From positions 1 through 64,000 of the forward strand of contig JAGAFU010000041.1 of NCBI GenBank assembly GCA_017627955.1: a DNA stretch of 64,000 bases, read 5' to 3'. Position numbers and translations under genes: made by a program. The notes under the pieces are model-generated. The model saw nothing but the letters and a program-made list of their open reading frames with translations, was not told where the DNA came from and searched no databases. Positions 14,697-62,809 of this stretch are shown here, piece after piece (the stretch's first letter is position 1; every line of letters starts with the position of its first letter). This DNA comes from Bacteroidales bacterium (GTDB taxonomy: Bacteria; Bacteroidota; Bacteroidia; Bacteroidales; UBA932).

Positions 14697-16379
14697 TTAA
14701 ATTTCCTCATTCTCCATTCCTTCGAACAGGTCGCCTGCCGCTTTGCTGATGGAACTTTGCAAGTGCTTGAGCCAAGTAAATTTAGGCTTGATCCGCGGTT
14801 TGGATGGTTTGGGCGGTTTGTTCCCCTTGAAGCGGCCTCCTTCGGGCTTGGCCACTTCGGGACCATCCGATCCGAACAGGGTAGGCTCTCCTTCTTCCTG
14901 CGCCGCGATGACGGAGGGTTCGATCGAGGGCTCGGACTCTTCGGCTAGATCCTTCGCTTCGCTCAGGATGACGGGATCGGGCCCTTCGGCTAGATCCTTC
15001 GCTCCGCTCAGGATGACAGGATCAGGCCCTTCGGCTCCGCTTTGTGTTGTAGGATCCGGCCCTTCGGCTAGATCCTTCGCTTCGCTCAGGATGACAGGAT
15101 CCGGCCCTTCGGCTCCGCTCAGGGACCGGTAATCGTCACTCTGTGGCCTGGGTTTCGGAGCTGTCCAGAAGCGTCTGGCGGGGGCTTCATTGACGCAGTT
15201 AAGCAACTGGTCGCCTTTCGCCGCGAGGATCATTCCCATCGAGGTCGCTGCCGAGGCCTCGGTAGCCTCAGGGCATCCCTCGCAAGAGAAGAATCTCCTC
15301 GGGTAGCCTATCTTTACTGAATATCCCGAAAGGTCTTTTATGTAGTTGGCGCAATTGACCATCTCAGCTCCTCCACCGGTCACAACGACGCCTGCCCTGA
15401 GCAGATCCTCGCTGGCGTATCCGCTGGCCTGGATATGGTAGAGAAGGGCCTCGATGATCTCTTTCATCCTGGCCGTTATGATCTCTGAGATGTATTTCAC
15501 GGTCACCTGCGCGGTCGGTTCGTCATTCTCGTCTACGATCTGGATGGATTTCTCACCGAGGGCGGATAGTTTGCCAGGCATGCAAGCTCCGTAGGCTTTC
15601 TTTATGTTCTCCGCGAGGTCAAATGAGAAATTGCATTCGGTCTTGATGTCACGGGTGATACTGTTGCCACCGAACGGAATGGCCGCATAGTATCTCATGA
15701 TCTTTCCTTTGAATATGGTCACGGAACTCACCCCGGCGCCGATGTCGATAAGGGCCACGCCATTCTCCATCTGCTCCTCCTTAAGGACGGCCCTGGCGGT
15801 GATCCCGGGAGTGAAATACTTCTTGGCGATGGCTATTCCCATGCTGTTGAAGACATTGTCGATGTTGATTGAATGCCTGCGGCTTCCGATGAATACTTTG
15901 AAGTTGCCTTCAAGCTTCTCGGCTGTCATTCCAACAATGTCTCCCTCGAGCTCATTCAAGCTGTCCTCGGTGGAGAAAGACTGGGCGACAGCTCCGTAGA
16001 TGACCTCGTTCTTCGAGTCACTCAACGGATATTCCTCAAGGGCCATCGACTTGAGTGTCCTGACCTCCCCGTCTTCTATCTGTGTGTCAGGATCCGTCCT
16101 CTCCATGCTGGCGGACGCGTTTTCCTGCCTGACATAGTAGCGGGGCAGGCCGACGATGACCTGCTGGATCTTGATCTTGAGCTCCTGCTGGGCTTGGGTG
16201 AGGGCATCCCTGAGGCCGCTTTCCACTTTACCGGGGTTGTTGACGTAGCTGTAGCGGATTCCCTGTGCCGGGGTCTCCTTGTAATAAATCACCTGGACAT
16301 CATGCCCCAGGATCCTGGCCACGCATACCGCCAATTTGGAGGTGCCCAGGTCGACAGACGCTATGTACCGTTCTTCCAT
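14697..16379 (-). CDS. ftsA: Cell division protein FtsA with a repeat-derived linker
   Basis: 560 residues. The actin-like core starts YIASVDLGTSKLAV (residues 5-18) and includes the SHS2 insert and nucleotide-binding motifs GAGVSSVTIF and VVTGGGAEM. The C-terminal amphipathic helix (FTWLKHLQSSISKAAGDL) targets FtsA to the membrane. Between core and helix, residues about 415-478 are a low-complexity linker made of repeated AEGPDPVILSEAKDL-like units, which are translated copies of the REP-like DNA repeat. The linker may act as a flexible tether. It tethers FtsZ to the membrane and lies between ftsQ and ftsZ. Confidence 0.95.
   Translation of the reverse strand: MEERYIASVDLGTSKLAVCVARILGHDVQVIYYKETPAQGIRYSYVNNPGKVESGLRDALTQAQQELKIKIQQVIVGLPRYYVRQENASASMERTDPDTQIEDGEVRTLKSMALEEYPLSDSKNEVIYGAVAQSFSTEDSLNELEGDIVGMTAEKLEGNFKVFIGSRRHSINIDNVFNSMGIAIAKKYFTPGITARAVLKEEQMENGVALIDIGAGVSSVTIFKGKIMRYYAAIPFGGNSITRDIKTECNFSFDLAENIKKAYGACMPGKLSALGEKSIQIVDENDEPTAQVTVKYISEIITARMKEIIEALLYHIQASGYASEDLLRAGVVVTGGGAEMVNCANYIKDLSGYSVKIGYPRRFFSCEGCPEATEASAATSMGMILAAKGDQLLNCVNEAPARRFWTAPKPRPQSDDYRSLSGAEGPDPVILSEAKDLAEGPDPTTQSGAEGPDPVILSGAKDLAEGPDPVILSEAKDLAEESEPSIEPSVIAAQEEGEPTLFGSDGPEVAKPEGGRFKGNKPPKPSKPRIKPKFTWLKHLQSSISKAAGDLFEGMENEEI
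14947..15130. repeat. Array of REP-like repeats within ftsA
   Basis: Three clear copies of the 26-base unit (starting AGATCCTTCGCT and ending CTCAGGATGAC on the + strand) occupy 14947-14972, 14992-15017 and 15070-15095. They are separated by spacers beginning GGATC(A/C)GGCCCTTCGGC. A degenerate partial unit lies at about 15031-15060 and another at 15101-15130. Spacing from copy 1 to 2 is 45 bases and from 2 to 3 is 78 bases, both multiples of three, so the reading frame of ftsA is kept. Each copy is read as VILSEAKDL (or VILSGAKDL). Confidence 0.9.
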
Positions 16380-16383
16380 ATAC

Positions 16384-17160
16384 TTATTTTCTGCAGATTA
16401 TCTGACCTTTATATTTCACATTAACCGTCGAGTAGAATCCTTCACCTTTCTCCGGCAGAATGGATGTGTAATACTTTTCCATCTTGGAAAACTTCTCTTC
16501 GAAGTCGTCCGCCGGTCCGAAGATGAAAACCTCCTTCCCTTGCCGGGGTACCATCACCAGGTCCCCATTAGCGCGTACGGAGATCTGGCTGATGTTTTCC
16601 GCCCATGTCTTCGTGGCTTTCATGTGGGCGGCCAGCTCGATGATCCCGGAGAGCCATTCCTTCTCTTTATCTGTGACCGGCTCCCCTTTGTAGCCGCTTT
16701 CGAACGTAAGCGGAACAGCTCCGTCTATGATCGGGACTTGAGAGGTGTAGTTGCTTTGCAAAGGGAATAAAAACCCTTTCTCATCGGCATAGAATCCGTT
16801 TCCACCCTTCTGGAACCTTACGACCGGCTCCCTCTGGTACACCTTCACATTCAGCATACCGTCGGGGGTAGTGTAGGCCTCTGTCTTCAGGATGGCGCTC
16901 TTGTTGTCAAGGATCTTCTCGACTTTTGCCAGGTCCACGCTATCCAGCCTCTGACCGATGTAGGCTCCGTATTCGCTGTCAAGGTAGCCCTCGATGTCCT
17001 CCGGCGTCACGAAGTTGTAACCGTCGGCGAACTCCACGTTGACGCCACCGCACGTGAGCTCCCTCTTGCGGTTCCCGTTCATCATGAAAATCATGAGGAT
17101 TAGGAACGCGAGCAGGCATGCCGCGGCGGCGATGATGGCTATCCTGAGTCCCTTTTTCAT
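16384..17160 (-). CDS. ftsQ: Cell division protein FtsQ
   Basis: 258 residues: short cytoplasmic N-terminus, one membrane helix (residues 7-27), then a periplasmic POTRA-like and beta domain (DLAKVEKILDNKSAILKTEAY, VYQREPVVRF). This matches FtsQ/DivIB in topology, size and position between murC and ftsA. It links early and late divisome proteins. Sequence conservation is weak in this family, so the assignment leans on context. Its ATG overlaps the murC stop by 4 bases. Confidence 0.88.
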   Translation of the reverse strand: MKKGLRIAIIAAAACLLAFLILMIFMMNGNRKRELTCGGVNVEFADGYNFVTPEDIEGYLDSEYGAYIGQRLDSVDLAKVEKILDNKSAILKTEAYTTPDGMLNVKVYQREPVVRFQKGGNGFYADEKGFLFPLQSNYTSQVPIIDGAVPLTFESGYKGEPVTDKEKEWLSGIIELAAHMKATKTWAENISQISVRANGDLVMVPRQGKEVFIFGPADDFEEKFSKMEKYYTSILPEKGEGFYSTVNVKYKGQIICRK

Positions 17161-18521
17161 TTTTCCAACCTTTTTTCCAGCAGTTCCGTGAGCGGGCCTA
17201 TGAACCGGTCGATGTTGCCGGCTCCGAAGGTTGCCAGTACATCAAGCGGCTCATCCTTAATATATTCCATTAGCTCTTCTTTCTTCAGAAGCACTTTCTC
17301 TCTTGCTGTCACCTTGTCGAAAATGATCTCCGAGGTCACTCCGGGGATCGGCTCCTCCCTGGCGGGATAGATGTCCAGGAGGATAAGCTTGTCGACAGCG
17401 CTCAGAGCCTCGGCGAACTCACCGGCGAAATCTCTTGTCCTTGAATACAAGTGGGGCTGGAAGATAGCCGTGAGTTTCCTTCCCGGGTACATCCTCTTGA
17501 TGGAGGAAATGGCGCTTGACAACTCCATCGGATGATGGGCGTAGTCGTCAATGTAGGTAAGGGTCGGGCTCGCGACGTGGACATCCAGTCTTCGCTTTAC
17601 GCCGGCGAATGTGCCTATTGCCTTTTTGGCACTCTCAGGATTAATTCCTTGCAGGATGCATATAGCTCCGGCGGCGACGCTGTTCTCGACATTGACCCAT
17701 CCTGGAATCCCGCATCTGACATCCTTCAGGATTCCGCCCGGGTAGACCAGGTCGAAGATGTAGTGCCCAAGCTCGTCTGGTGTCGGATCTACGGCGCGGA
17801 AATCCGCCTCGGGGTCGTTATAACTATATGTAAGTATCTCTGCTTTAGTGTCTTCCTTAGTAATATCAAGACCCTTTTTGACGAGAAGAGTCTTCGTCAC
17901 CTGCGAGGCGAAAACCTTGAAAGCCTTCCGGTATTCCTCGGGTGTGCCGTAGATGTCCAGATGGTCCGGATCCATAGCCGTGATCACTGCGGCTGCCGGA
18001 TGGAGCTGGAGGAATGACCTGTCATACTCATCCGCCTCAGCCACGAAAATCCTTTCCTGGCTGACCAGGAGGTTCGTGTCATAGTTCTTGGATATTCCTC
18101 CGAGGAAGGCGGAGCATCCGGGGCCCGCCTCGGTGATAATATGGGCTATCATCGTGCTTGTCGTGGTCTTCCCGTGGGTCCCCGCGACAGCCAGACAGGT
18201 TTGTCCGGAAGAAAGTTCCCCAAGCATGCGGGATCTCTTCACCAGAGTGTATCCGTGCTCCCTAACGTAGACCATCTCGCCGAGATTTTCCGGGACCGCC
18301 GGGGTGTAGACAACCAGGGTGGAGGCGACATCTTTCGGGATGTAGTCCGGATCGTCGTTGTAATGGACGGAAATGCCTTCGTTCTCAAGCTCCCGGGTGA
18401 GGTCGGAAGGTGTCCTGTCATATCCGGCCACGGGATAGCCCTTGGTCTTGTAATACCTGGCGATGGCGCTCATTCCTATGCCGCCGATCCCGATGAAATA
18501 TATCTTGGAATATTCAGACAT
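17157..18521 (-). CDS. murC: UDP-N-acetylmuramate--L-alanine ligase
   Basis: 454 residues. N-terminal UDP-binding loop FIGIGGIGMSAIARYY (residues 9-24), ATP loop VAGTHGKTTTSTMIAH (near residue 113), and the domain 3 motif IDDYAHHPMEL. It adds L-alanine to UDP-MurNAc, the first step of the stem peptide, in the cytoplasm. It lies 6 bases after murG and overlaps ftsQ by 4 bases, in the usual dcw order. Confidence 0.97.
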   Translation of the reverse strand: MSEYSKIYFIGIGGIGMSAIARYYKTKGYPVAGYDRTPSDLTRELENEGISVHYNDDPDYIPKDVASTLVVYTPAVPENLGEMVYVREHGYTLVKRSRMLGELSSGQTCLAVAGTHGKTTTSTMIAHIITEAGPGCSAFLGGISKNYDTNLLVSQERIFVAEADEYDRSFLQLHPAAAVITAMDPDHLDIYGTPEEYRKAFKVFASQVTKTLLVKKGLDITKEDTKAEILTYSYNDPEADFRAVDPTPDELGHYIFDLVYPGGILKDVRCGIPGWVNVENSVAAGAICILQGINPESAKKAIGTFAGVKRRLDVHVASPTLTYIDDYAHHPMELSSAISSIKRMYPGRKLTAIFQPHLYSRTRDFAGEFAEALSAVDKLILLDIYPAREEPIPGVTSEIIFDKVTAREKVLLKKEELMEYIKDEPLDVLATFGAGNIDRFIGPLTELLEKRLEK

Positions 18522-18527
18522 TCTCTC

Positions 18528-19670
18528 TTAAACTAATTTATAAACCTCTTCGGCGATTTTCATCGCCGCGTCCGGAAGCGCCATCTTGCCCGCGTTCTCC
18601 TCCAGGGTCTTTATCTTGTCCGGATCTTTGAGGAGTTCCAGAGCTGTAGGAATCATCTTGTCCAAAGCCTCGGAGTCCTTGACTATCATAGCCGCGTCCT
18701 TCCGTACCAGAGCCATGGCGTTGTGGGTCTGGTGGTCCTCCGCCACGTTGGGCGATGGCACGAAAATGACAGCCTTGTGGGCGGCGCACAACTCGGACAC
18801 GCTGCTTGCTCCAGAGCGGGATATAACCACATCCGCCGCGGCGTAAGCCAGATCCATCCGTCCGATGAAGTCGGAATACTTGACTTTTTCGGCGAGTTCC
18901 GGATTCCTCATGTTCTCCTCTTCCATGAAAATGTCTATATCCGCTTTATAGAACTTGCCGCACTGCCACAATATGTCCACCCCTTCAGATCCAGGGCAAC
19001 CATCGTGTATCCATTTTCGCATCGAGGCGTTCAACTTGGCGCTTCCCAAGCTTCCCCCCACGATGAATATGTGCTTTTTAGAAGGATCCAGGCCATATTC
19101 CCTCTCTCCATCCGCTTTCATCTCCGGGGTGCATGGCACAAAGACGTTCCTGATCGGATTGCCTGTAAGGACTATCTTGTCTTTCGGGAAGAAGCGTTCC
19201 ATTCCCTCGTAGGCGACGCAGATGCTCTGGACTTTGTCGCCCAGCTTCTTGTTGGTCAGCCCGGCGAATCCGTTCTGTTCCTGGATCAGCGAAGGAATGC
19301 CCATCCGTGTAGCCGCTATCAGAAGGGGAGCGCTGGCGTAGCCTCCTACTCCTATCGCCACTTGGGGTTTGAACTCCTTGATGATGCGCCTGGCTTTCCG
19401 GAGGCTTGAAATAACCCTGGCCGGGACAGTCAGATCATTGATTATGTTCTTCAGGTTCAGCTGGCGCTGGAGACCTGTGATAGGCAAGCCGATGATCTTG
19501 TAGCCGGCAGCGGGGACCTTTTCCATCTCCATCTTGCCTTCGGCTCCGACAAAAAGGATCTCCGTCGAGGGATTGAGTTCCTTGAGTTTGTTGGCGATAG
19601 AGACCGCCGGGAAGATATGCCCTCCCGTGCCGCCTCCACTGATTATGACTCTCAACGCTTTGTATTCCAT
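18528..19670 (-). CDS. murG: UDP-GlcNAc:lipid I N-acetylglucosaminyltransferase
   Basis: 380 residues. The Gly-rich GGGTGGHIFPA motif (near residue 13) and IGVGGYASAP are diagnostic GT28/MurG signatures, with ISRSGASSVSEL near residue 285 for donor binding. It makes lipid II at the inner face of the membrane. I chose the ATG at 19670, 4 bases after the ftsW stop. A TTG at 19691 is in frame but would overlap ftsW and adds seven residues with no family support. Confidence 0.96.
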   Translation of the reverse strand: MEYKALRVIISGGGTGGHIFPAVSIANKLKELNPSTEILFVGAEGKMEMEKVPAAGYKIIGLPITGLQRQLNLKNIINDLTVPARVISSLRKARRIIKEFKPQVAIGVGGYASAPLLIAATRMGIPSLIQEQNGFAGLTNKKLGDKVQSICVAYEGMERFFPKDKIVLTGNPIRNVFVPCTPEMKADGEREYGLDPSKKHIFIVGGSLGSAKLNASMRKWIHDGCPGSEGVDILWQCGKFYKADIDIFMEEENMRNPELAEKVKYSDFIGRMDLAYAAADVVISRSGASSVSELCAAHKAVIFVPSPNVAEDHQTHNAMALVRKDAAMIVKDSEALDKMIPTALELLKDPDKIKTLEENAGKMALPDAAMKIAEEVYKLV

Positions 19671-19674
19671 GGCT

Positions 19675-21078: not shown

Positions 21079-21100
21079 CTTTCTGTCTCTTAAGCTATTC

Positions 21101-23779: not shown

Positions 23780-25261
23780 TTATTTTTCAGATGTTTCCAT
23801 TGATTTGAACACTTCGGAGACGATCTCGCGCTCATCAAAGTGGCGCTTTTCGGTTCCGATAATCTGATAAGTCTCGTGACCTTTCCCGGCGAGAAGGATG
23901 GTGGCTCCTTTGGACGCGAACATTATCGCGCAGCGGATAGCTTCCTTCCTGTCCGGGATAAAGACCGCCTTGGCAAGACCTTCTGGGCTGAATCCGGCCT
24001 TGATCTCCTCGAGGATGTCCTCGGTCCTTTCGGTGCGGGAGTTGTCCGAAGTCACTATGATCCTGTCGGAATATCCTTCCGCGACCTTCGCCATCTCCGG
24101 ACGCTTCGTGCGGTCGCGGTCGCCGCCGCAGCCAAACAGGCAGACCAGTTCTTTGCCCCGGTCGATTTCCCTCAGGGTTTTGAGCACGTTGTCCAAGGCG
24201 TCGGGAGTGTGGGCATAGTCAATGACCACCGCTTTATCCTGCGGGCCCCTCATGACCTCGAGCCTGCCTGGAGCGGGCTTGAGCTTGCTTATCGCTATGA
24301 GGGTCTCTTCGGGATCGGCACCGAGCGCCATGGCGGCGCTGTAGATCGCCAGGATGTTGCTCGCGTTGTGCCTTCCCACGAGGGTGGTCCATGCCTCCTT
24401 ACCGTCAATTTTAAGCAACATGCCCTCAAAGCTTTCCTCAAGCACCCTGCAAGTGTGATCGGCAATACCCTTGCAAGAAAAAGTCATAACCTTTGCCTTG
24501 GTGTTCTGCACCATCACATCGCCATGCTTGTCGTCAATATTGATCACCGCGGTGGCCTTGGGGCCAAGGTTGTCGAAAAACAGCTTCTTGCAGCGGAGAT
24601 ATTCGGCGAATGTGCCGTGGTAGTCAAGATGGTCGTGAGTCAGGTTCGAGAATATTCCCACTTTGAAATCAAGTCCTGAGACCCTCTCTTGCTCAACGCC
24701 GATCGAGCTGACCTCCATGAAGCAATACTCGCATCCGGCATCAACCATCTCAGCCATGAGAGAGTTGATGGTGATAGGGTCAGCGGTTGTGTTGGCTGTC
24801 TCAAAGCGGTGCTTCCCGACATAATTGGCGATAGTGGAGAGCAGGCCACAGTTGTAGCCCTGGGCCATAAACAGCTGATAGAGAAGGGTGACCGTGGTGG
24901 TTTTCCCATTAGTGCCGGTGATTCCCACCAGGGAAAGCTTCCGGGACGGATTGTCGTAGAAGTTAGCGGCTATGATAGCCAGGGCATGACGAGAGGAGGC
25001 AACCTTGATGAAGGTGACGCTGTTGTCATTCTGAAGGAGCGGAGCGACTGAAGAATCTTCCTCATATACAATCGCCGCGGCACCGGCCTCGATGGCCTTC
25101 CCGATGAAGGCATGACCATCCGCCCCATGACCCTTCACGGCCACGAACAACCCTCCCTCACTTACCTTGCGGGAGTCCGCCGTGACGTTGTTTATGGTCT
25201 TGCCGAGATCACCTTTGACCTCGACCGTTCCGCAATCCTTTATGATATCCTCAAGTCTCAT
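23780..25261 (-). CDS. murE: UDP-MurNAc-tripeptide synthetase MurE
   Basis: 493 residues. ATP loop GITGTNGKTTTVTLLYQ (near residue 118), the carbamylated-lysine region, and the C-terminal VIDYAHTPDAL. The amino-acid specificity loop reads SDNSRTE, where DAP-adding enzymes normally have DNPR; the Arg that contacts DAP is kept, so meso-DAP is still the likely substrate. Residues 68-79 (SSVAPLLQND) in the N-terminal domain are encoded by a REP-like repeat. The end of ftsI overlaps its start by 4 bases. No murF follows, as is usual in this phylum. Confidence 0.96.
   Translation of the reverse strand: MRLEDIIKDCGTVEVKGDLGKTINNVTADSRKVSEGGLFVAVKGHGADGHAFIGKAIEAGAAAIVYEEDSSVAPLLQNDNSVTFIKVASSRHALAIIAANFYDNPSRKLSLVGITGTNGKTTTVTLLYQLFMAQGYNCGLLSTIANYVGKHRFETANTTADPITINSLMAEMVDAGCEYCFMEVSSIGVEQERVSGLDFKVGIFSNLTHDHLDYHGTFAEYLRCKKLFFDNLGPKATAVINIDDKHGDVMVQNTKAKVMTFSCKGIADHTCRVLEESFEGMLLKIDGKEAWTTLVGRHNASNILAIYSAAMALGADPEETLIAISKLKPAPGRLEVMRGPQDKAVVIDYAHTPDALDNVLKTLREIDRGKELVCLFGCGGDRDRTKRPEMAKVAEGYSDRIIVTSDNSRTERTEDILEEIKAGFSPEGLAKAVFIPDRKEAIRCAIMFASKGATILLAGKGHETYQIIGTEKRHFDEREIVSEVFKSMETSEK
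25025..25058. repeat. REP-like repeat inside murE
   Basis: A 34-base variant of the REP family: it starts GTCATTCTGAAGGAGCGGAG and ends CTGAAGAATCTT, with self-complementary ends. It is read on the minus strand as SSVAPLLQND within the N-terminal domain of MurE, in a region between a beta strand and the following helix that varies in the family. The reading frame is intact on both sides. Confidence 0.75.
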
Positions 25262-27369: not shown

Positions 27370-27374
27370 CCTGT

Positions 27375-30895: not shown

Positions 30896-30928
30896 GGGTT
30901 AAATGTAGTAAAAAATCAGACGATTTCC

Positions 30929-30936
30929 TATCTTTA
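30929..30936 (+). promoter_or_regulatory. -7 element for the envelope-glycan operon
   Basis: TATCTTTA matches TAnnTTTG at seven of eight positions (final A). It ends 6 bases before the ATG of the small exported protein at 30943, so a transcript starting at the usual distance would have almost no leader. Confidence 0.55.
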
Positions 30937-30942
30937 CATATT

Positions 30943-31179
30943 ATGAGTTCAACTATGCGAAATTCAGCCGTGATCACGCGTACGCTGGTGGCGGGCATGG
31001 CCATCCTGATCTCCATGATCCTGCCGGCCCAGACTTTTGAGAAAGGATTCGAGCAGATGTTCCTTCCCGGTCACAGCCACAATCTTGGCTCAGATTACAT
31101 AAACAAACGTGTCTTCGAGTTTTTTTTGGAAAAACATCCCCCGGAAATGATTAAATTCGCGAATATTTGGCACAAATGA
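30943..31179 (+). CDS. Small exported or membrane-anchored protein, unknown
   Basis: 78 residues. The N-terminus (RTLVAGMAILISMILPA, about residues 13-29) is a signal peptide or signal anchor; a cleavage after PAQ is plausible. The remaining 48 residues are polar and aromatic (EKGFEQMFLPGHSHNLG) with no recognised domain. Its reality is supported by a promoter element directly upstream and by an ATGA overlap with the GT2 gene, which implies translational coupling. It may be a small partner of the downstream glycan-modifying enzymes, or a remnant of a larger gene. Unrecognised. Confidence 0.6.
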   Translation: MSSTMRNSAVITRTLVAGMAILISMILPAQTFEKGFEQMFLPGHSHNLGSDYINKRVFEFFLEKHPPEMIKFANIWHK

Positions 31180-31913
31180 ACAGGACAATCGAATACAACC
31201 TTACGGTTATAGTCCCCATATTCAATGAGGAAGATAACATGAAGAGGCTCGAGGAGCGCCTCTCCGCTTTCCTGCCTGAGTGCTCAAGAAAGGCTTGCGT
31301 CCTGTTCGTGGACGATGGCTCCAAAGACGGTAGTCTCAAGTGGATCAAGGATATATGCTCGCGCCACAAGGACTTCATGTTTATCTCGTTCGATAAGAAC
31401 GCCGGTCTTTCGGCCGCCTTGAAGGCTGGTTTCGACTATGCCGAGTCTGAGCTTGTCGGCTACATCGACGCCGATCTCCAGACAGATCCCGAGGACTTCA
31501 ACCTCCTGCTGGAGGATATTGACGACTTCTCGATGGTGGTCGGGATCCGCTCCGGGAGAAAGGACTCCTGGTTCAAGAATACCCAGTCCAAGATCGCCAA
31601 TGGTTTCCGCAGGATGATGACACATGACGGTGCGTTGGACACTGGATGCCCCCTCAAAGTGCTGCGCACGGACGTGGCGAAGCGTATTCCCATGTTCAAA
31701 GGCATGCACCGGTTCTTTCCCGCGCTTGTGCTCCTCCAGGAAGGAGGGTCCTACAAGCAAGTGCCGGTAAGACATTACCCGAGGATCGCGGGGCAGTCCA
31801 AATACCACCTCTGGAACAGGCTTTGGGGGCCTTTCGCTGATTGTTTCGCCTATCGCTGGATGAAACCGCGATACTGCAACTACAAGGTTACTGAAAACAA
31901 TCTGGAAATCTGA
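31176..31913 (+). CDS. GT2 glycosyltransferase (polyprenyl-phosphate type)
   Basis: 245 residues from the ATG at 31176 (a TTG at 31167 is also in frame). GT-A motifs: VIVPIFNEEDNM (residues 11-22), VDDGSKDGS (near 45), and YIDADLQTDPED with the DxD metal site. It lacks C-terminal membrane helices, like dolichol-phosphate mannosyltransferase catalytic domains. The likely role is to load a sugar onto undecaprenyl phosphate for use by the ArnT/PMT-type enzyme two genes downstream. The stop overlaps the next start by one base. Confidence 0.9.
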   Translation: MNRTIEYNLTVIVPIFNEEDNMKRLEERLSAFLPECSRKACVLFVDDGSKDGSLKWIKDICSRHKDFMFISFDKNAGLSAALKAGFDYAESELVGYIDADLQTDPEDFNLLLEDIDDFSMVVGIRSGRKDSWFKNTQSKIANGFRRMMTHDGALDTGCPLKVLRTDVAKRIPMFKGMHRFFPALVLLQEGGSYKQVPVRHYPRIAGQSKYHLWNRLWGPFADCFAYRWMKPRYCNYKVTENNLEI

Positions 31914-32560
31914 TGAGCGGACTGCCACACTGGATAATTTACACTGTCGGCTTCGCCGCCCAGTTGTTCTTCGCGGGAAGGACGCTTTTCCAGTGGCTGT
32001 ATTCGGAGAAGAAAAAGGAGGTCACATCACCTTCGACGTATTGGGGCCTCAGCGTCATCGGCGCTTTCCTGATGTTCGTCTATGGGGTGATGAGGGACGA
32101 TTTCTCGATTATTCTCGGCCAGCTCATCTCATATTTCGTCTATCTTTGGAACCTTGACGCGAAAGGTGTGTGGAGCAGGCTTTCCAAAGTGTTGAGGGGT
32201 GTCCTGATCTTGACTCCATTCGTAGCTGTAGGCTTGTTGCTCCATGATGCCAGGGCCTTTGTGGCCAATATGTTCCAGAATGAGGACATCCCTCTCTGGC
32301 TCGTCGTTTTCGGATCCGCCGGACAAATCATATTCACCCTCCGTTTCGTGTACCAGTGGTTCTATTCCCACCGTCTGCATGAGAGTGTCCTTCCCAGAGG
32401 CTTCTGGATCATCAGCCTGATAGGGTCAGGCGTGATCGTGGCTTATGGAATATTCCGGAAAGATCCCGTGCTCATCCTGGGACAGTCTTTCGGTTTCGTC
32501 GCTTATGTGAGAAACCTTATGCTGGGGTTTAAAAAAGATAAAGGTCATGCCGAAACTTGA
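31913..32560 (+). CDS. Tandem LAB_N-domain membrane protein
   Basis: 215 residues, six or so membrane helices in two similar halves. Each half carries a QxxFxxRxxxQWxYS block: QLFFAGRTLFQWLYS near residue 17 and QIIFTLRFVYQWFYS near residue 136. This is the lipid-A-disaccharide-synthase N-terminal (LAB_N) domain found as stand-alone membrane proteins beside GT2 and ArnT-like genes. Its biochemical role is unknown; moving or flipping the polyprenyl-linked sugar is one idea. It overlaps the GT39-like gene by 14 bases. Confidence 0.85.
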   Translation: MSGLPHWIIYTVGFAAQLFFAGRTLFQWLYSEKKKEVTSPSTYWGLSVIGAFLMFVYGVMRDDFSIILGQLISYFVYLWNLDAKGVWSRLSKVLRGVLILTPFVAVGLLLHDARAFVANMFQNEDIPLWLVVFGSAGQIIFTLRFVYQWFYSHRLHESVLPRGFWIISLIGSGVIVAYGIFRKDPVLILGQSFGFVAYVRNLMLGFKKDKGHAET

Positions 32561-34313
32561 GATAGATAATTTCCTGACCAGACATCCGCTGGCCGTCACT
32601 TTCTGTTTCATCTTCCTGTGCCTACTGCCGGTGATGATAATGAGGGATTTTACTCCGGACAATGAGTTGAGATACCTCCAGATCGCTGACGAAGCTATCG
32701 AAAACGGCAATGTTTTCGCCTTCACGCTGGACGGTCAGGCCTATGCCGACAAACCTCCGCTCTACCTCTGGATAGTGATGCTCTGCAAGCTTATCCTTGG
32801 GAAGCATTCGATGTTCCTCCTGTCGCTTTTCTCCCTGATCCCGGCTTTCGTGATCATAGCGGTGATGGACAGATGGGCCGGACTCGAGAAGGTCTCGGAT
32901 CGCATCTCCGTGGCTTTCATGATGATGACTTGCGCCTTGTTCCTGGGAGCGTCGGTGTTCCTGCGTATGGACATGCTCATGACGATGTTCATCGTGCTGG
33001 CAATGAATTCATTCTGGCTTCTCTATACCGGGAAAGGCAACCGCCGGAAACAGGAGATCCTTATGCCTCTTTGGATATTCCTGGCTCTTTTCACGAAGGG
33101 TCCCGTTGGCATTTTGATGCCTCCTGTGGCGATAATATGCTTCCTGCTTCTCAAGAGGAAAGGCAAGGAGATAGGGAAATATCTCGGCTGGAAGACATGG
33201 GGGATTATCGCGGGGTTGTGCGTCGTTTGGTTCGGGGGTGTGTATCTTGACGGGGGAAAAGATTATCTCAACAACCTGCTTTTCCACCAGACTGTCGGGA
33301 GGGCTGTCAACTCCTTCCACCACAAGGCTCCCATCTGGTACTATCTCGTCGCGATATGGTACATCGTCGCCCCATACATGTTCCTCCTCGTCGGTGCCTT
33401 GATTGTCTCGCTGATCAACGGCTGGCAAGTACCGCCCCTGGCTCGCCGCGCTTCGCGCCCTATCCGGGAAAATGCTCGCCAGGAGCGGTCTTGCCAGCCG
33501 GACGAAACTTCATGTCATCCTGAGCGAAGCGAAGGATCTGGCGACAAGGAGACATTATTCTGTGTGACAATCGTTTCCACATTTGTGATGCTGTCCCTTT
33601 TCAGCGGGAAGCTCGCCATATACCTGGCCCCGATAATGCCCTTCATGGTCCTTCTTTTCGTGGAAGTCCTTCGGAGGACCGGCTGGAAGAAGTGGATGAC
33701 CTGGTCCTTGGCGGTCCCGGTGGCGTTGGTCGGGATTCTGGCTCTCGCGGCCTTGGGTGTCCTGTTTTTCGGAGATTATATTCCAAAGCTTGCTGAGTTG
33801 ACCGCCCCTTATTCATTCATCGGCTCGTGGACGCTTAAGCTGGCAACGCTTCTGTTGCTCTCTGGAGCGGTGTTCTGCCTTTACTATCTTTTCTCAAAGA
33901 AGAACCCTAGCGTCTCCTTGATGTTCCTCGGGGCTTCCTTGCTGCTGGCTGTGTATTCCGCGTCCTCCGTTCTGCCTCAAGCTAATGACTGGATCGGGTA
34001 CGGGAATCTTTGCAAGACGATTCCAGCTGAAGCCCGTGTGGCGGCCGTCCAGGTACGTCGTCCCCTCCCGATGAAGGTGTATCTTGGTAGGGAACTTGTT
34101 GATTATCAGAAAGATTTTCAAGCTTTTTATGAAGCTGAGGTCGCTGGGATGACGTCTTCTGACAAACCGTTGATCCTTGTCACAAGAACGAAGAAGCTGT
34201 CCTCTGATGAGGCCTTGGCAGCCTTTGTGGAGAATAATCCGCATTGGACTGTGGGGCCATATATCGCGGTGACATACCATCCGCAAGAAAACATTTCGCA
34301 AGAAGAAGAGTAA
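32547..34313 (+). CDS. ArnT/PMT-family membrane glycosyltransferase
   Basis: 588 residues with 10-12 membrane helices. The first periplasmic loop has DFTPDNELRY (near residue 33), the acidic motif of ArnT/PMT enzymes, followed by DKPPLYLW. Such enzymes transfer a sugar from polyprenyl phosphate to lipid A or another envelope acceptor on the outer face. Residues about 292-331 are unlike the family: they are encoded by a palindromic element (33420-33499) and a REP-like copy (33514-33539), giving CHPERSEGSG. The insertion follows a predicted helix and lies in a loop. The stop codon overlaps the promoter of the next gene. Confidence 0.88.
   Translation: MPKLEIDNFLTRHPLAVTFCFIFLCLLPVMIMRDFTPDNELRYLQIADEAIENGNVFAFTLDGQAYADKPPLYLWIVMLCKLILGKHSMFLLSLFSLIPAFVIIAVMDRWAGLEKVSDRISVAFMMMTCALFLGASVFLRMDMLMTMFIVLAMNSFWLLYTGKGNRRKQEILMPLWIFLALFTKGPVGILMPPVAIICFLLLKRKGKEIGKYLGWKTWGIIAGLCVVWFGGVYLDGGKDYLNNLLFHQTVGRAVNSFHHKAPIWYYLVAIWYIVAPYMFLLVGALIVSLINGWQVPPLARRASRPIRENARQERSCQPDETSCHPERSEGSGDKETLFCVTIVSTFVMLSLFSGKLAIYLAPIMPFMVLLFVEVLRRTGWKKWMTWSLAVPVALVGILALAALGVLFFGDYIPKLAELTAPYSFIGSWTLKLATLLLLSGAVFCLYYLFSKKNPSVSLMFLGASLLLAVYSASSVLPQANDWIGYGNLCKTIPAEARVAAVQVRRPLPMKVYLGRELVDYQKDFQAFYEAEVAGMTSSDKPLILVTRTKKLSSDEALAAFVENNPHWTVGPYIAVTYHPQENISQEEE
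33420..33499. repeat. 80-base palindromic element inside the ArnT-like gene
   Basis: Outer arms GGCTGGCAAG (33420-33429) and CTTGCCAGCC (33490-33499) are perfectly complementary, and inner arms ACCGC/GCGGT and CCTGGC/GCCAGG extend the stem. The centre GCTTCGCGCCCTATCCGGG is shared, with few changes, with an element inside lplA (54604-54686). This looks like a small mobile or REPIN-type hairpin inserted in frame. Confidence 0.8.
33514..33539. repeat. REP-like repeat inside the ArnT-like gene
   Basis: A perfect 26-base copy of the family seen in ftsA (begins GTCATCCTGAGCGAAGC, ends GAAGGATCT), here read on the plus strand as CHPERSEGS. It follows the palindromic element by 14 bases. Confidence 0.9.
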
Positions 34314-34318
34314 ATTTG
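34311..34318 (+). promoter_or_regulatory. -7 element for glutamine synthetase III
   Basis: TAAATTTG fits TAnnTTTG and ends 7 bases before the ATG at 34326. Its first three bases are the stop codon of the preceding gene. If used, the transcript would begin at or next to the start codon. No convincing -33 element or sigma-54 site is seen. Confidence 0.5.
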
Positions 34319-34325
34319 ATTAGTT

Positions 34326-55393: not shown

Positions 55394-55398
55394 TAGAT

Positions 55399-57929: not shown

Positions 57930-57931
57930 CC

Positions 57932-58516
57932 ATGGGGGAGCCGCTGGTTGAGAGACATCCTTTCGAGCCTTTCCTTCCGGAAGGGGCCAAGGTGCTGATG
58001 CTGGGGAGTTTCCCGCCTCAGCCCAAACGCTGGAGCATGGAGTTTTATTACCCGAATTTCATCAATGATTTCTGGAGGATAGTCGGGATCATATTCTTCG
58101 GCGACAAAGACCGGTTTGTGGACCAGGCCGCGAGGAAGTTCCGCCTCGATGAGATCAAGGAGTTCTGCTCAGAAAAGGGAATCGCGATGTTCGACACGGC
58201 CGTGGCTGTCCGGCGCCTTAAGGACAACGCTTCGGACAAGTTCCTTGAGGTTGTGGAACCAACTGATATTCCGGCGCTTCTGCGGAGAATCCCGGACTGC
58301 CGGGCCGTGGTTGTGACAGGAGAGAAGGCTTCGGCCACTTTGTGCGGTACTTTTGGGACGGAGCCTCCGGCGGTTGGGGAATATTCATCATTCACCTTCG
58401 AGGGGCGCCCCATGCGTCTCTACCGCATGCCTTCCACCTCCCGGGCCTACCCACTCCCGATCCAGAAAAAAGCCGACGCTTACCGCCGGCTCTTTGTGGA
58501 TCTTCGGATGGTCTAG
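57932..58516 (+). CDS. Uracil-DNA glycosylase superfamily protein
   Basis: 194 residues from the ATG at 57932; the frame is open much further upstream, but that part is antisense-like noise inside the preceding gene. MLGSFPPQPKRWSMEFYYPN (near residue 23) and NDFWRI are characteristic of the DNA-deoxyinosine/uracil glycosylase subfamily, with a C-terminal MPSTSRAYPLP motif. It removes damaged bases. It lies 2 bases after the acyltransferase gene and converges on the heparinase-like gene. Confidence 0.88.
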   Translation: MGEPLVERHPFEPFLPEGAKVLMLGSFPPQPKRWSMEFYYPNFINDFWRIVGIIFFGDKDRFVDQAARKFRLDEIKEFCSEKGIAMFDTAVAVRRLKDNASDKFLEVVEPTDIPALLRRIPDCRAVVVTGEKASATLCGTFGTEPPAVGEYSSFTFEGRPMRLYRMPSTSRAYPLPIQKKADAYRRLFVDLRMV

Positions 58517-58526
58517 TCTATTGAGG

Positions 58527-60332
58527 TTATTTCTCCAGTGAGACTTTGACCTTGACTTTTTCGTGGGGCAGGACGTTTTTGATCTCGAAGCCGACGAGGC
58601 AAGTGCCTGGATTGTCAGCGTCGTATTCATGCCTGGGAGAGGTTGGCCATATTCTCGGACTGGCGTAATGCTTTGTGTGAATCCTCAGGACGCGGGTCTT
58701 CCCATCCTTCTTCAGTTCGATCGCGGCTGGCCCCAGTATCCTGGCCTCGGCTTCAGTACACATCTTCCAGATCAGGTTCTGCTTCGAGTCTCCTCCAATG
58801 AAAAAGTCTTCGACATTAAGATCGTCCTTTTTGTCCAACCAGACTTTCCGGTAGCAAGAGTCGAGGTCGCCTCCGTAGAAAGCCGTCATAGGCATCCAGA
58901 CGCCTTTCCGGGATTTCTTCTCCCAGACCTCACGGAATGGGATACGGACATCGACCACCGGTCTTTTGTCCTTGACCGTGAGAATGTTATGCGATTCGGC
59001 CCCAATCCTGAAGACATCCCATCGCTGACTCTCCTGAGCTGCTGACCAGAGGTTTACACCCCGGCTTTCCAAAGAGTTGTAGTCCTGGCTTCCGAGATCC
59101 GCGGCCCAGCATATTCCATCACTCTCAAAGACGAAGGAGCCGGCATCGATGTGGCCATGGTTGTCAGCGGCCCGGCCGCCTTTGACTCCAAAGTAGGTGT
59201 CATCCGTGCTGTCCCAGCCACGTCGATACATGAAAAGCGGCTCCAGTCCCGAGCAATGATACGTGTTGTAAGACGGGGCCTTGATGGCGTTGAAATCTAC
59301 CTTGGAGCAACTGATGAGGAAGATGGGGAGCAGGCGGTCCGTGTCGCCCATGGTGAACCCCTTATCCCGGAAGAACGCCAATTCGGGATAAAGAACTGAC
59401 GGGTCCCCGGTCCGGGTGGCCATCCACGCCTGCATTGACTGGAATATCTGCTTCCTGCTTACATCAAAGAAGCTGAATACCCTGTGTGCCGGGGTGGACA
59501 TCATGCTCATGAATTTGGAGGAGTTGTAAAAACCCTCCTGGCCGTCCATAAGCCCCAGGTCGCTTCCGAAGGCGCTCTCCAGGACCGAGATCAGCATAAT
59601 CTGGAAAGAGGTTCCGTACTCCCAATAGCTGTATCCTTCTGGATAGCAGCCCTCCCTGGAGTAGCTGGCCAGACTTATCGGGTTGGATTCCAGGCTTCTA
59701 CGGACTATCGCCCTGGCCTCGTCTGAGGCGTCTTCCCAGATCGCCAGAGCCCCGCAGACCATCCCGGCGTTGCATACCTGGTTCCAGTTGTTGTTGGAGG
59801 TCAGGAACCACTGCCCATCGGAAGGACGGAGCCCTTTGTCGAGAATCGCTTGACTGATCTCTGAACGCTGATCTTCAGTAAGTTCTGAATATAACCAATC
59901 ATATCCTAAAGAGATGGCCATGGTCATCTCCGCCACATCCAGGAAATGGGAGGGGTTCCAGTCAGTGAAGCGGCAGACAGTGAGCATCTCCTCGGCCGCT
60001 CTGTCGAGATATTCCTGTTTTCCGTCCAGGCGGTACATGGTCGAAAGATAAAAAACCCTCTTCAGGACCTCCCGCGACACATGAAGGAGCCTGCGGCCAG
60101 TCATCACCCGCTCGCAAGGAGGGGTCGTCAGCAAATTGTCGGAGAATGTCTTGATGTATGAATATGCCTCTTTGGCCATTCCTCCCTTGGCAATGGCTTC
60201 CCGGACGGTGGCCTCCTCTCCGGCTTTCATAACGAGTCGAGGGTGCTCACAAGGGTCGGGAATGATCGCCGCCGTACCGAAAACGGGTAGGAAGACCAGG
60301 CACAGCGCGACCGCTAGGAAAATCTTTCTCAT
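58527..60332 (-). CDS. Exported heparinase II/III-family polysaccharide lyase
   Basis: 601 residues with a signal peptide (cleavage near residue 21). The N-terminal two-thirds is an alpha/alpha toroid (SNNNWNQVCNAGMVCGALAI, YPEGYSYWEYG), and the C-terminal third a beta-sandwich with DNHGHIDAGSFVFESDG, the conserved heparinase II/III metal/His block. The family cleaves uronic-acid-containing polysaccharides such as heparin-type glycans or alginate. The substrate cannot be set. It stands alone, with no SusC/SusD or sulfatase nearby. Confidence 0.9.
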   Translation of the reverse strand: MRKIFLAVALCLVFLPVFGTAAIIPDPCEHPRLVMKAGEEATVREAIAKGGMAKEAYSYIKTFSDNLLTTPPCERVMTGRRLLHVSREVLKRVFYLSTMYRLDGKQEYLDRAAEEMLTVCRFTDWNPSHFLDVAEMTMAISLGYDWLYSELTEDQRSEISQAILDKGLRPSDGQWFLTSNNNWNQVCNAGMVCGALAIWEDASDEARAIVRRSLESNPISLASYSREGCYPEGYSYWEYGTSFQIMLISVLESAFGSDLGLMDGQEGFYNSSKFMSMMSTPAHRVFSFFDVSRKQIFQSMQAWMATRTGDPSVLYPELAFFRDKGFTMGDTDRLLPIFLISCSKVDFNAIKAPSYNTYHCSGLEPLFMYRRGWDSTDDTYFGVKGGRAADNHGHIDAGSFVFESDGICWAADLGSQDYNSLESRGVNLWSAAQESQRWDVFRIGAESHNILTVKDKRPVVDVRIPFREVWEKKSRKGVWMPMTAFYGGDLDSCYRKVWLDKKDDLNVEDFFIGGDSKQNLIWKMCTEAEARILGPAAIELKKDGKTRVLRIHTKHYASPRIWPTSPRHEYDADNPGTCLVGFEIKNVLPHEKVKVKVSLEK

Positions 60333-60364
60333 TGCTTTAGAGAGTTTGCTTCATTAAAACCCCC

Positions 60365-60372
60365 TAAAGATA
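60365..60372 (-). promoter_or_regulatory. -7-like element of the heparinase-family gene
   Basis: On the minus strand this reads TATCTTTA, seven of eight to TAnnTTTG. Leader about 26 nt. It lies 12 bases from the divergent element at 60385-60392, so the two promoters overlap. Confidence 0.5.
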
Positions 60373-60384
60373 ATGAAAAATGAG

Positions 60385-60392
60385 TATATTTG
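60385..60392 (+). promoter_or_regulatory. -7 element of the carboxyltransferase gene
   Basis: TATATTTG, full match to TAnnTTTG, giving a leader of about 18 nt to the ATG at 60417. Confidence 0.65.
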
Positions 60393-60416
60393 TAGGATAA
60401 AAGGAATTATACAAAT

Positions 60417-62222
60417 ATGGCGAAAGAGATAAAGTTTTCCCTGGTGTACAGGGACATGTGGCAGAGCTCCGGGAAGTACGTCCCGAGAGTGGATCAGCTT
60501 TGCGAGGTGGCTCCGGCGATTATCGACATGGGATGCTTTGACCGTGTCGAGACCAACGGCGGAGCGTTCGAGCAGGTCAATCTCCTTTTTGGGGAGAACC
60601 CGAACGTGGCTGTCAGGAAGTGGACCGCCCCTTTCCACAAGGCCGGGATCCAGACACACATGCTTGAGAGGGGATTGAACGCGTTGAGAATGAACCCTGT
60701 GCCGAGAGATGTGCGTGACCTTATGTTCAAGGTGAAGAAAAAGCAAGGAACCGACATCGCTCGTTCTTTCTGCGGCCTGAACGACCACCGCAACCTCCGC
60801 GGCTCTGTCGAAGGCGCGAAGAAAGGAGGAATGATCTCCCAGGTCGCCCTGTCGATCACCAATTCTCCTGTCCACACCGTGGCATATTACATGGGTATCG
60901 TTGACAAGGTCGTAGAGTACGGTTGCGACGAGATTTGCCTCAAGGATATGGCCGGAATCGGCCGTCCTACGTTCCTTGGCCAGCTGGTCCAGGATATCAA
61001 GAAGAAATATCCCCACATCGTGGTCCAATACCACGGACATACGGGTCCCGGATTCTCTCCCGCCTCAATGCTCGAGGTCGCGAGGGCCGGCGCCGATTAT
61101 CTGGATGTCGCGGTTGAGCCCCTCTCATGGGGCAAGGTCCATCCCGACGTGATCACCATCAGGGAGATGATGAAGGCGGACGGCTTCCTTGTGAAGGACC
61201 TGAATATGGACGCCTACATGGAAGTCAGGCGTCTGACCCAGAAGTTCATCGACGACTTCCTCGGATATTGGATCAATCCCACCAATTCACAGATGAGCTC
61301 GCTCCTGGTTGGCTGCGGCCTTCCGGGCGGAATGATGGGTTCCATGATGGCTGACCTCAAGGGTTTCCAGGGCGCTATCAATGCGGCCGAAAGGGCTCAT
61401 GGCCGGCCGGAGATCAGTCTTGACACATTGATGGTCAAGCTCTTCCAGGAAGTTGAATATGTGTGGCCGAGACTTGGCTATCCGCCTCTTGTGACTCCTT
61501 TCAGCCAGTATGTGAAGAACACTGCCCTGATGAACTTGCTGAATATGCTCAACGGGAAACCCCGTTGGACGACCATCGACAAGGACACTTGGGGAATGAT
61601 CCTCGGCAATATGGGGCAGCTTCCCGGACCTCTCGCTCCCGAGATCATCGATCTCGCCAAGGAGAAGGGGCTGGAGTTCAGTACCGGCAATCCCCAGGAC
61701 AACTATCCCGACGAGCTTCCTAAGTTCCGCAAGATGATGGATGAGGAAGGCTGGGATTACGGTGAGGACGATGAGGAGCTCTTCGAGCTTGCGATGCACG
61801 AGCGCCAGTACCGTGACTACAGGAGCGGAATCGCGAAGGAGCGTTTCAACAAGGAACTTGCTGATCTTAAGGCGAAAGCGGGGGCTCCTATCGTTGTGGA
61901 GCGTCCTGTGGTCGAGATGCCTAAGTTTGATGTCGAGGAATATGCGAAGCGTTATCCTCATGCCGTGCCAGTCCAGGCTCCTGTCAAGGGCCAGCTCCTC
62001 TGGCAGGTCGATGTGGAGGATGATTCCGCGGCACCCGTGGCCGGGACCGAGGTCAAGGCCGGAGAAGGAATGGGCTTTGTCCAGACATATTACGGAATGG
62101 AGGAGATCGTCCCAGCGGTGGACGGCCGTGTTGTCGCTGTGCTTGGAAAGCAGGGTGATAAGGTCGCCAAGGGGGAGATTGTGGCGTTTGTGGAAGGAGA
62201 TTCTTCGCCGCGCTCAGAATGA
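60417..62222 (+). CDS. Carboxyltransferase of the oxaloacetate decarboxylase alpha / PycB family, biotin lysine absent
   Basis: 601 residues. The TIM-barrel carboxyltransferase domain starts FSLVYRDMWQSSGKYVPRV and includes CLKDMAGIGRP (metal/active-site Lys), VQYHGHTGPG with metal His residues and the conserved carboxylase domain (NMLNGKPRW). The C-terminal 75 residues fold like a biotinyl domain (VQAPVKGQLLW, VPAVDGRVVAVLGKQGDKV), but the position of the biotin-carrying MKM is QTYYGME, so no biotin lysine is present. Acceptor and partner are unknown and no beta subunit lies nearby. The last codons and the TGA are in a REP-like repeat. Confidence 0.88.
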   Translation: MAKEIKFSLVYRDMWQSSGKYVPRVDQLCEVAPAIIDMGCFDRVETNGGAFEQVNLLFGENPNVAVRKWTAPFHKAGIQTHMLERGLNALRMNPVPRDVRDLMFKVKKKQGTDIARSFCGLNDHRNLRGSVEGAKKGGMISQVALSITNSPVHTVAYYMGIVDKVVEYGCDEICLKDMAGIGRPTFLGQLVQDIKKKYPHIVVQYHGHTGPGFSPASMLEVARAGADYLDVAVEPLSWGKVHPDVITIREMMKADGFLVKDLNMDAYMEVRRLTQKFIDDFLGYWINPTNSQMSSLLVGCGLPGGMMGSMMADLKGFQGAINAAERAHGRPEISLDTLMVKLFQEVEYVWPRLGYPPLVTPFSQYVKNTALMNLLNMLNGKPRWTTIDKDTWGMILGNMGQLPGPLAPEIIDLAKEKGLEFSTGNPQDNYPDELPKFRKMMDEEGWDYGEDDEELFELAMHERQYRDYRSGIAKERFNKELADLKAKAGAPIVVERPVVEMPKFDVEEYAKRYPHAVPVQAPVKGQLLWQVDVEDDSAAPVAGTEVKAGEGMGFVQTYYGMEEIVPAVDGRVVAVLGKQGDKVAKGEIVAFVEGDSSPRSE

Positions 62223-62260
62223 CAGTAACGCGCTCAGAATGACAGTAACGCGCTCAGAAT
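62198..62260. repeat. REP-like repeat plus tandem 20-base fragments at the carboxyltransferase stop
   Basis: A near-complete copy (AGATTCTTCGC followed by CGCTCAGAATGACAG, 62198-62225) is followed by two further partial units of 20 bases (TAACGCGCTCAGAATGACAG) to about 62260. The gene's final codons SSPRSE and its TGA (62220-62222) are inside the first copy. The cluster fills the gap to the SPOR lipoprotein gene. Confidence 0.85.
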
Positions 62261-62272
62261 GATCGTTGTTTT

Positions 62273-62809
62273 ATGAGAAAAGGTTTTCAGTCCGTTTTCG
62301 TTTTGTTGTCAGTCGCCATGTTGGTGTCTGGCTGCGATTTCTTTCGGGTGCTGGCCGGGAGGCCGACGTCGAAGGAGATTGCGGCGAAGCGGGAGGAGAT
62401 CCTTCGCTCCGCTCAGGATGACAGAACGCCGGTTGAGCCGGGGATGACAGATGAGAATCCTGGGATGGCGGATGAGAAGCCGGTGATGACGGATGAGAAG
62501 CCGGTGATGACGAGCGATTCGGCTGTGCCAGCTGACACTTCCACAAGTTCGGCGACAAAGACGAAAGAAAAGAAGCGTTACTATGTGATCATGGGGGCTT
62601 TCTCGAGCAAGGAGAACGCCGAGAAGTATGGCGAGCGGATTCAATCCTTTGGCTATGAGCCGGAGTTCTTCGGGTTCACAGAGGGACGTACGGCTGTAGG
62701 AATAGGAGGGACTGACGACCTCGAGGAGGCGAAGATATTCATGAGAGAGTTGAAAGGGCAGGATTTTTGCCCGGACGGTGTCTGGATTCTTGACAGGAAA
62801 AGGAAATGA
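62273..62809 (+). CDS. SPOR-domain lipoprotein with repeat-derived linker
   Basis: 178 residues. Signal with lipobox LVSGC (Cys about residue 21), then a linker, then a SPOR-like domain (residues about 100-175, YYVIMGAFSSKENAEKYGER) that should bind peptidoglycan glycan strands. The linker (residues 42-80) is made of a REP-like copy read as ILRSAQDD followed by heptapeptides DEKPVMT. It sits 51 bases after the carboxyltransferase and its stop overlaps the next ATG by 4 bases. Confidence 0.82.
   Translation: MRKGFQSVFVLLSVAMLVSGCDFFRVLAGRPTSKEIAAKREEILRSAQDDRTPVEPGMTDENPGMADEKPVMTDEKPVMTSDSAVPADTSTSSATKTKEKKRYYVIMGAFSSKENAEKYGERIQSFGYEPEFFGFTEGRTAVGIGGTDDLEEAKIFMRELKGQDFCPDGVWILDRKRK
62397..62424. 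repeat. REP-like repeat inside the SPOR lipoprotein gene
   Basis: A full copy (AGATCCTTCGCTCCGCTC, ending AGGATGACAG) read as ILRSAQDDR, that is, in the orientation opposite to the ArnT-like copy. Confidence 0.85.
62432..62512 (+). repeat. Heptapeptide-coding 21-base tandem repeat
   Basis: Four units: VEPGMT (62432-62449), DENPGMA (62450-62470), DEKPVMT (62471-62491) and DEKPVMT (62492-62512). The last two are identical in DNA. The first contains GAGCCGGGGATGAC, which resembles another dispersed repeat type. It lengthens the periplasmic linker. Confidence 0.8.

Follow-up and report, generated by a model that had tools for sequence, protein, structure and literature searches.

Taken as a whole, the evidence is best explained by a 27-nt palindromic repeat – resembling the CGTC class of repetitive extragenic palindromic (REP) sequences – that probably multiplies as DNA in the lineage of an uncultured Bacteroidales bacterium, entering intergenic DNA and genes alike. 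The repeat was noticed in a stretch of 64,000 nucleotides (assembly GCA_017627955.1, contig JAGAFU010000041.1, positions 1 to 64,000; hereafter the window), for which an initial annotation had listed copies in ftsA (three), in an ArnT-like gene, in the gene of a SPOR-domain lipoprotein, in murE, at the stop of a carboxyltransferase gene and at one intergenic site. All are present (Table 1), the murE copy being a variant with a longer loop. The further claim that the repeat spreads as DNA and is read in several frames is well supported: the left half of the unit (a 12-mer) occurs 112 times in the genome and its reversed control not at all, four frames of the unit are open, and relatives mostly lack it.

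Form, abundance and breadth of the repeat

The unit, TGTCATYCTGAGCGNAGCGAAGRATCT, comprises a TGTC tag, a 5-bp stem, a tandem G.A mismatch, a 2-bp inner stem, a 3-nt loop and a CT tail; the fold predicted for both strands (5 bp, a 2x2 internal loop, 2 bp and a 3-nt loop) has a stem that starts with AT. One stem pair is variable (Y/R) and is matched in all 69 exact 25-mers of the genome and, when loop variants are included, in 82 of 82 full units, 44 carrying T-A (T-form) and 38 C-G (C-form). Outside this genome the pair is correct in 137 of 140 units and mismatched in three, by hand count among the matches listed in a search of Bacteroidota. C-form units lie inside genes more often than T-form units do (23 of 38 vs 11 of 44, p = 0.0016), a bias that could reflect local composition or two subfamilies. 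Within the 82 full units TCAT is preceded by TG in 81, the remaining one (in ftsA) reading CGTC, and the base after the CT tail is A in 38, C in 20, G in 13 and T in 11. Neighboring pairs no more than 100 bp apart share their orientation in 16 of 17 cases (hand count, among 100 of the 112 places listed). The core of the unit, GCGAAGC, presumably behaves like a known stable DNA hairpin, and may play that part in this repeat. The hairpin in question, CGCGAAGCG, is described as extraordinarily stable in the available text of PMC10527192.

Much of this anatomy and behavior is common to CGTC REPs as they appear in the available text of Di Nocera, De Gregorio and Rocco 2013 (PMC3733652): the CGTC/TGTC tag, the AT stem start, alternative complementary stem residues, intragenic units, units near or overlapping gene ends, Bacteroidetes among the phyla, and no dedicated transposase (here, none of six Y1 genes is flanked by the unit on both sides). 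Four features differ. The CGTC REP stem has 8-9 bp, whereas here it is 5 bp, a 2x2 internal loop (tandem G.A) and 2 bp; the loop has 4-5 nt, as against a predicted 3 nt here, a difference that depends on convention, since in complex stems the unpaired inner bases are there reckoned to the loop; the tail is 3 nt, mostly CCA, rather than CT; and dimers are mainly head-to-head with head-to-tail negligible, whereas here nearly all are head-to-tail. The same text places RPE-4 and RPE-6 in the CGTC superfamily, which bears out the likeness to Rickettsia palindromic elements (RPEs) drawn in the initial annotation. Those elements, too, are short palindromes in frame inside conserved genes, and the behavior recurs here, with units in frame in unrelated conserved genes and mostly absent from orthologues; the host phylum and the sequence are different, and the likening is by description rather than by exact sequence. 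With GTAG REPs and RAYT REPtrons the repeat has in common a short hairpin with an unpaired tag, but it has no GTAG tag and, on these incomplete contigs, no transposase flanked on both sides. In-frame REP insertions are reported within tnpA-REP genes of subclass 2.4 in the available text of PMC6006769. Literature searches with unit strings (GAGCGAAGCGAA), longer strings and derived peptides, whose scope left out most subscription journals, returned no paper on this repeat.

In the genome (2,575,374 bases in 60 contigs, 92.6% complete; its named relatives are mostly metagenome-assembled genomes (MAGs) from the rumen) the repeat is abundant. The window alone holds seven matches to a 17-mer at up to three mismatches, against a shuffle mean of 0.30, and none of 100 shuffles reaches seven. 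That the copies are chance, ordinary coding sequence or an artefact of binning or assembly is hardly credible: a few matches are indeed natural motifs (such as one in an NtrC-type regulator), but for the bulk of the copies the explanation is refuted by the control count and by independent MAGs of other species that carry the ftsA unit.

Placement was examined for 108 of the 112 left-half copies, on 73 merged stretches (377,043 bases including the window), of which 88.9% was coding according to a home-made dicodon gene finder. Fifty-three copies fall between genes, 42 inside genes and 13 across gene ends; with 53 of the 108 in the ~11% called non-coding, per-base density is ~10 times higher between genes. 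Eleven of the 13 gene-end overlaps have the same 2-base geometry, in which the CT end of the unit completes a TAG stop on the other strand. A similar overlap with gene-end stops is reported for GTAG REPs in the available text of Di Nocera et al. 2013 (PMC3733652).

Beyond this genome, the 24-mer occurs in 57 of 395 Bacteroidota genomes (this one included) and the reversed control in none. One of these genomes, from another class of Bacteroidota (G248; G, C and L numbers are our handles for genomes, contigs and loci), has 111 exact 24-mers, which makes it well suited for comparison. Among the 24 genus mates the count of the 12-mer ranges from 1 to 36, and since the control gives 0 to 2, low counts mean little. 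Near matches with weak E-values lie on plasmids of Calothrix and Planktothrix (Cyanobacteria) and Granulicella (Acidobacteria), and the 25-mer is present in 116 viral-contig stretches. The patchy 24-mer, the plasmid near matches and the viral stretches would all suit repeated horizontal arrival – by phage, plasmid or DNA uptake – with no copying within the genome; we consider this quite improbable, as single units sit within genes that are otherwise syntenic and diverged.

Host genes and unit-free relatives

Inside genes the unit is read on the same strand as VILSEAKDL or CHPERSEGS and on the opposite strand as EILRSAQND or RSFASLRMT. Many coding insertions stay open because the unit has a length divisible by three and no stop occurs in four of its six frames. 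The frame beginning TCA TCC TGA contains a stop, and a fifth frame serves as stop supplier, three full units giving xDSSxRSE* (e.g. DSSLRSE*). Once stop suppliers are set aside, 31 full coding units remain, and 23 of them have sense orientation (p = 0.011). According to the initial annotation, every copy preserves the frame and lies in a linker or loop; most do occupy such places, but the carboxyltransferase copy supplies the stop and with it a new C-terminus.

Host genes include ftsA, murE, cysS, fmt, priA, relA/spoT, aroA, parC and atpH. Thirty proteins were scanned with Pfam, and four, the ArnT-like protein among them, had no match; the others include CysS, GH92 (two), ATP synthase delta, an outer membrane efflux protein, Fmt, PriA, a thioredoxin-like protein, RelA/SpoT, GH2, peptidase U32, an NAD-dependent epimerase, GlcNAc 2-epimerase, a dehydroquinase-EPSP synthase fusion, GH95, GH106, topoisomerase IV A, FtsA and the SPOR protein. 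Solved homologues and domain matches show where several of the units fall. In CysS the unit (359-367) occupies extra length, query residues 351-393 standing opposite 359-370 of the solved chain; in Rel and Fmt it lies in gapped stretches, in PriA between aligned parts, and in the fusion protein between the domains, with two half units in extra stretches. It adds ~4 residues in GH92, and in the epimerase it occupies a loop that is naturally long (~6 residues shorter in the best homologue). The U32-type protein had no match among solved structures.

In ftsA the stretch between ATPase body and C-terminal end is partly made of repeats, one predicted peptide (DLAEGPDPVILSEAK) spanning host residues and repeat. 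Such insertion may, as the initial annotation proposed, yield new linker peptides, and at the level of sequence ftsA is a good example, two repeat families making up much of the linker in the window. Among 29 FtsA orthologues (from 28 loci and the window), repeat-like units with up to seven mismatches occur in the last 500 nt of seven, the window included (L043 only at seven mismatches), and none occurs in the ftsA body; shuffles gave 0.0. On a tree of the FtsA body (28 rows; the partial L058 was left out) the pattern of units takes five changes, three of them forced by well-supported branches, and the rows nearest to the window (L046, L047 and L049) have no unit.

At other sites, too, the orthologues examined mostly lack the unit, apart from sites common to G017, a mapped relative of the same genus (by FtsA body the three rows just named are nearer). 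Neither outcome that the initial annotation named as refuting its reading (the same residues in orthologues of distant genera, or no 26-mer elsewhere in the genome) came about. In cysS the unit is absent from 14 of 15 aligned genus mates, G017 holding a REP-like version with several changes; for the carboxyltransferase, none of 18 relatives ends in DSSxRSE; the ArnT-like segment is missing in all three closest homologues aligned; and at the murE site G017 is four residues shorter. When the flanks of 18 coding sites, minus the 25-base unit, were searched in G017, G016 and G013, 15 aligned with G017 (the atpH, C38 and C15 sites did not), several of them roughly (C10, C11, C46 and C52). Twelve of the 15 show no visible unit in G017, and three (epimerase, U32 and thioredoxin-like) are REP-like there. 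The fmt and priA sites of G017 hold other repetitive sequence. GH106 has two units, one common to G017 with changes and one facing VTLDGNS in G017; as a probable case of replacement in GH106, G017 reads KTTVTLDGNSLPKY and our genome KTTVILSEAKDLPKY.

The right half of the unit, used as bait, finds a degenerate left half in 4 of 75 cases in this genome vs 6 of 9 in G017 (Fisher p = 4e-5) and in 0 of 35 in G003, G005, G011, G019 and G024 together; it found no match in G016 or G013. Because left halves are mostly perfect here and mostly decayed in G017, the repeat looks young in this genome and retired in that one. Continuous rewriting of ancestral copies, perfect here and decayed in G017, is suggestive only, since our copies were found by exact match, a bias that the right-half search lessens in part.

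A number of observations weigh against the explanation given at the outset. The SPOR unit is not a recent gain, because G017 has the identical 27-mer at the same site, and the CysS, epimerase, thioredoxin-like and U32 units are not recent either, G017 being REP-like there. The matched stem pair may in part reflect two inherited subfamilies. The DNA fold of a single unit is weak (-1.9 to -2.7 kcal/mol; z -0.11 to -0.84 vs shuffles) and the RNA fold is not unusual (z -1.65 and -0.94). Neither target duplication nor a fixed target was seen at the compared sites, where most junctions are unplaceable and flanking loops too diverged; junctions are usable at GH106, GH92, murE and the carboxyltransferase end. 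As to the tallies, the simple gene finder overlooked where the SPOR gene begins and tallied its copy as intergenic, and because copies were found by exact match, decayed copies in this genome are under-counted. Finally, the counts of Y1 genes and of repeats correlate across 25 genomes (rho 0.51, p = 0.0097, uncorrected for kinship or completeness).

Some of these data would also suit a unit retained for what it does, be it in transcript stability, in termination, for gyrase or as a useful linker, with the coding copies selected. The enrichment between genes, the shared geometry by which 11 of 13 gene-end overlaps complete a TAG stop, the sense bias in genes and the SPOR unit identical in two species are what such a function might leave behind; the units nevertheless lie in unrelated host proteins and in differing frames, 12-mer counts run from 1 to 112 within one genus, and coding units are missing from most relatives examined, all of which makes this explanation unlikely.

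Spread of the repeat as DNA remains our preferred reading. The unit would enter intergenic DNA and genes, selection retaining coding copies in loops, linkers and C-termini. Intragenic REPs were already known; what is added here is dozens of cases in conserved genes, along with mapped relatives in which they are missing. They amount to a natural insertion scan, showing where FtsA, CysS, RelA/SpoT, PriA and others accept foreign residues. In annotation, peptides of the types VILSEAKDL, CHPERSEGS, ILRSAQND and RFFASLRMT should be suspected of being translated repeat DNA and not conserved motifs.

Y1 genes and the copying of the repeat

The genome has six matches to Y1_Tnp, candidates for the TnpA-REP (Y1) transposase mentioned in the initial annotation; as the cause of spread such a gene fares less well, the 27-mer flanking none of the six on both sides (on incomplete contigs, and with the Y1 class alone checked). 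A seventh Y1-like frame, on C46, was picked up by a home-made profile. Five of the six proteins have NCBIfam REP_Tyr_transpos as best match. It is possible, if on balance unlikely, that a resident RAYT-type HUH (Y1) transposase acts in trans to cut and mobilize the repeat, a mechanism proposed for GTAG REPs: the genes are there, their numbers correlate with those of the repeat, the anatomy of tag and hairpin suits recognition of single-stranded DNA, and one unit lies ~290 bp from the (short) Y1 gene on C29 and a divergent one ~325 bp from that on C12. The matches to REP_Tyr_transpos, however, score 22-38 bits, under the cut-off of 80 bits, and the sixth protein has none; genomes rich in Y1 genes and poor in repeats exist (six and three in G006); and no Y1-like open reading frame was found with the home-made profile (12 seeds) in the 116 viral stretches that hold the 25-mer. 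Moreover, the genes on C49, C12 and C8 are each flanked on both sides by repeats of their own (Table 1), different for each gene and unlike the 27-mer. An inverted-repeat scan (at least 18 nt) listed none for C49 and C8, the shorter palindromic arms being read from the sequence.

Because these three RAYT-like genes have other flanking palindromes, we lean, tentatively and with less than even confidence, to strand-templated replacement in replication or repair as somewhat likelier than cutting by the resident RAYT-like proteins. Copying would act on a hairpin of single-stranded DNA, and in places (GH106, GH92 and murE) the unit appears to replace resident sequence rather than simply to add to it. 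In its most general form the idea is doubtful: a hairpin near-invariant across families of Bacteroidota, and nearly matched in other phyla, would spread transposase-free by strand-templated replacement at partly matching sites and, with at least three other families, would rewrite the same permissive loops of essential proteins, by different repeats in different species. Spread without a dedicated transposase becomes testable because coding copies have mapped unit-free relatives; these mapped sites of presence and absence, the repeated use of permissive loops and the finding that no RAYT-like gene is flanked by the unit on both sides are the most useful outcome of the analysis.

Two further flanks of Y1 genes carry repeats. 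Upstream of the gene on C45 (L037, ~1205-1250) there is a hairpin, ACGCGTAGC...GCTACGCGT, found also at C45:2409, on C33 and on C54, and the upstream flank on C29 (L039, ~715-830) has 108 nt in common with C52 at 95%; both may be repeats tied to the other type of Y1 gene. A 12-mer in a Y1-like frame of G005 (L378) was rejected, being the HUH motif region itself and no repeat.

Other repeat families and minor observations

At least three further families enter genes. For the second, CCCTGAGCGGAGYCGAAGGG, a relaxed pattern matches at 17 places, one of which looks like a chance outlier; the home-made finder puts 13 inside genes. The third is a palindrome of ~80 nt with nine copies, seven inside genes and in several frames; its core is conserved and its outer ends are similar, whereas the arms of the middle stem vary from copy to copy; on inspection by eye they tend to remain complementary, with modest scores (4 to 8) from a script. 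The fourth, TACTCAGCCGCAG, has four copies in this genome and four in the G017 stretches examined. Near position 35225 of C41 a second-family unit is nested in a unit of the fourth. In the U32-type protein and PriA (C28:21672-23732 and C13:678-2641) different repeat families lie at or near the same loop here and in G017 (L390 and L410).

Table 1. Repeat units and host genes in the window, with RAYT-like genes of the genome
Feature	Position	Strand	Remarks
Intergenic copy	10468..10512	+	one left half and one full T-form unit
ftsA	14697..16379	-	stretch between ATPase body and C-terminal end partly repeats
Full C-form unit, tag CGTC, ftsA linker	14947..14973	-	read VILSEAKDL
Full C-form unit, ftsA linker	14992..15018	-	read VILSGAKDL
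Full C-form unit, ftsA linker	15070..15096	-	read VILSEAKDL
Second-family unit CCCTGAGCGGAGYCGAAGGG, ftsA linker	15105..15123	-	
murE	23780-25261	-	
Longer-loop variant of the unit, murE	25024..25058	+	antisense reading SSVAPLLQND
ArnT-like membrane gene	32547..34313	+	segment with both repeats absent from three closest homologues
Third-family repeat, ArnT-like gene	33420..33498	+	adjoins the unit; conserved core GCGCTTCGCGCCCTATCCGGGAAAATG within complementary arms
Full C-form unit, ArnT-like gene	33513..33539	+	read CHPERSEGS
Carboxyltransferase gene	60417..62222	+	C-terminus set by repeat
Full T-form unit, 3' end of carboxyltransferase gene	62198..62224	-	complementary strand gives TGA stop (DSSPRSE*)
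Two more left-half units	62229..62262	-	tandem, 20-bp period
SPOR-domain lipoprotein gene	62273..62809	+	
Full C-form unit, SPOR lipoprotein gene	62397..62423	-	read ILRSAQDD
RAYT-like Y1 gene	C49:6540-7445 (L041)		own flanking palindromes GGTAGAGG...CCTCTACC, 52-bp period
RAYT-like Y1 gene	C12:21129-22331 (L040)		own flanking repeat CCATGTGG...CACATGG, mostly 51-55 bp apart
RAYT-like Y1 gene	C8:46102-46767 (L038)		flanked by a pair of 114-nt copies, 85%

Some matches were set aside as natural sequence. VILSEGKNL in the NtrC-type regulator was rejected as an insertion, for it aligns gap-free to solved homologues; the DNA (C10:6493-6517, L016) is one base off the repeat, by coincidence or possibly by conversion. 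A half-match in an nth-like gene, VILSA, resembles what we take to be a motif of the family (the analysis itself giving the domain only) and was likewise set aside; a polA-like half-match is possibly another such case.

At its syntenic position G017 lacks the window stretch 30896-34325, which includes the ArnT-like gene, and L052 also has a repeat at the site equivalent to the intergenic copy. The RelA/SpoT-type protein (C16:45370-47093, L027) has its unit in the HD domain, and because FLHEAIRM there replaces the FLHDVVED of the solved homologue, its hydrolase site may be lost.

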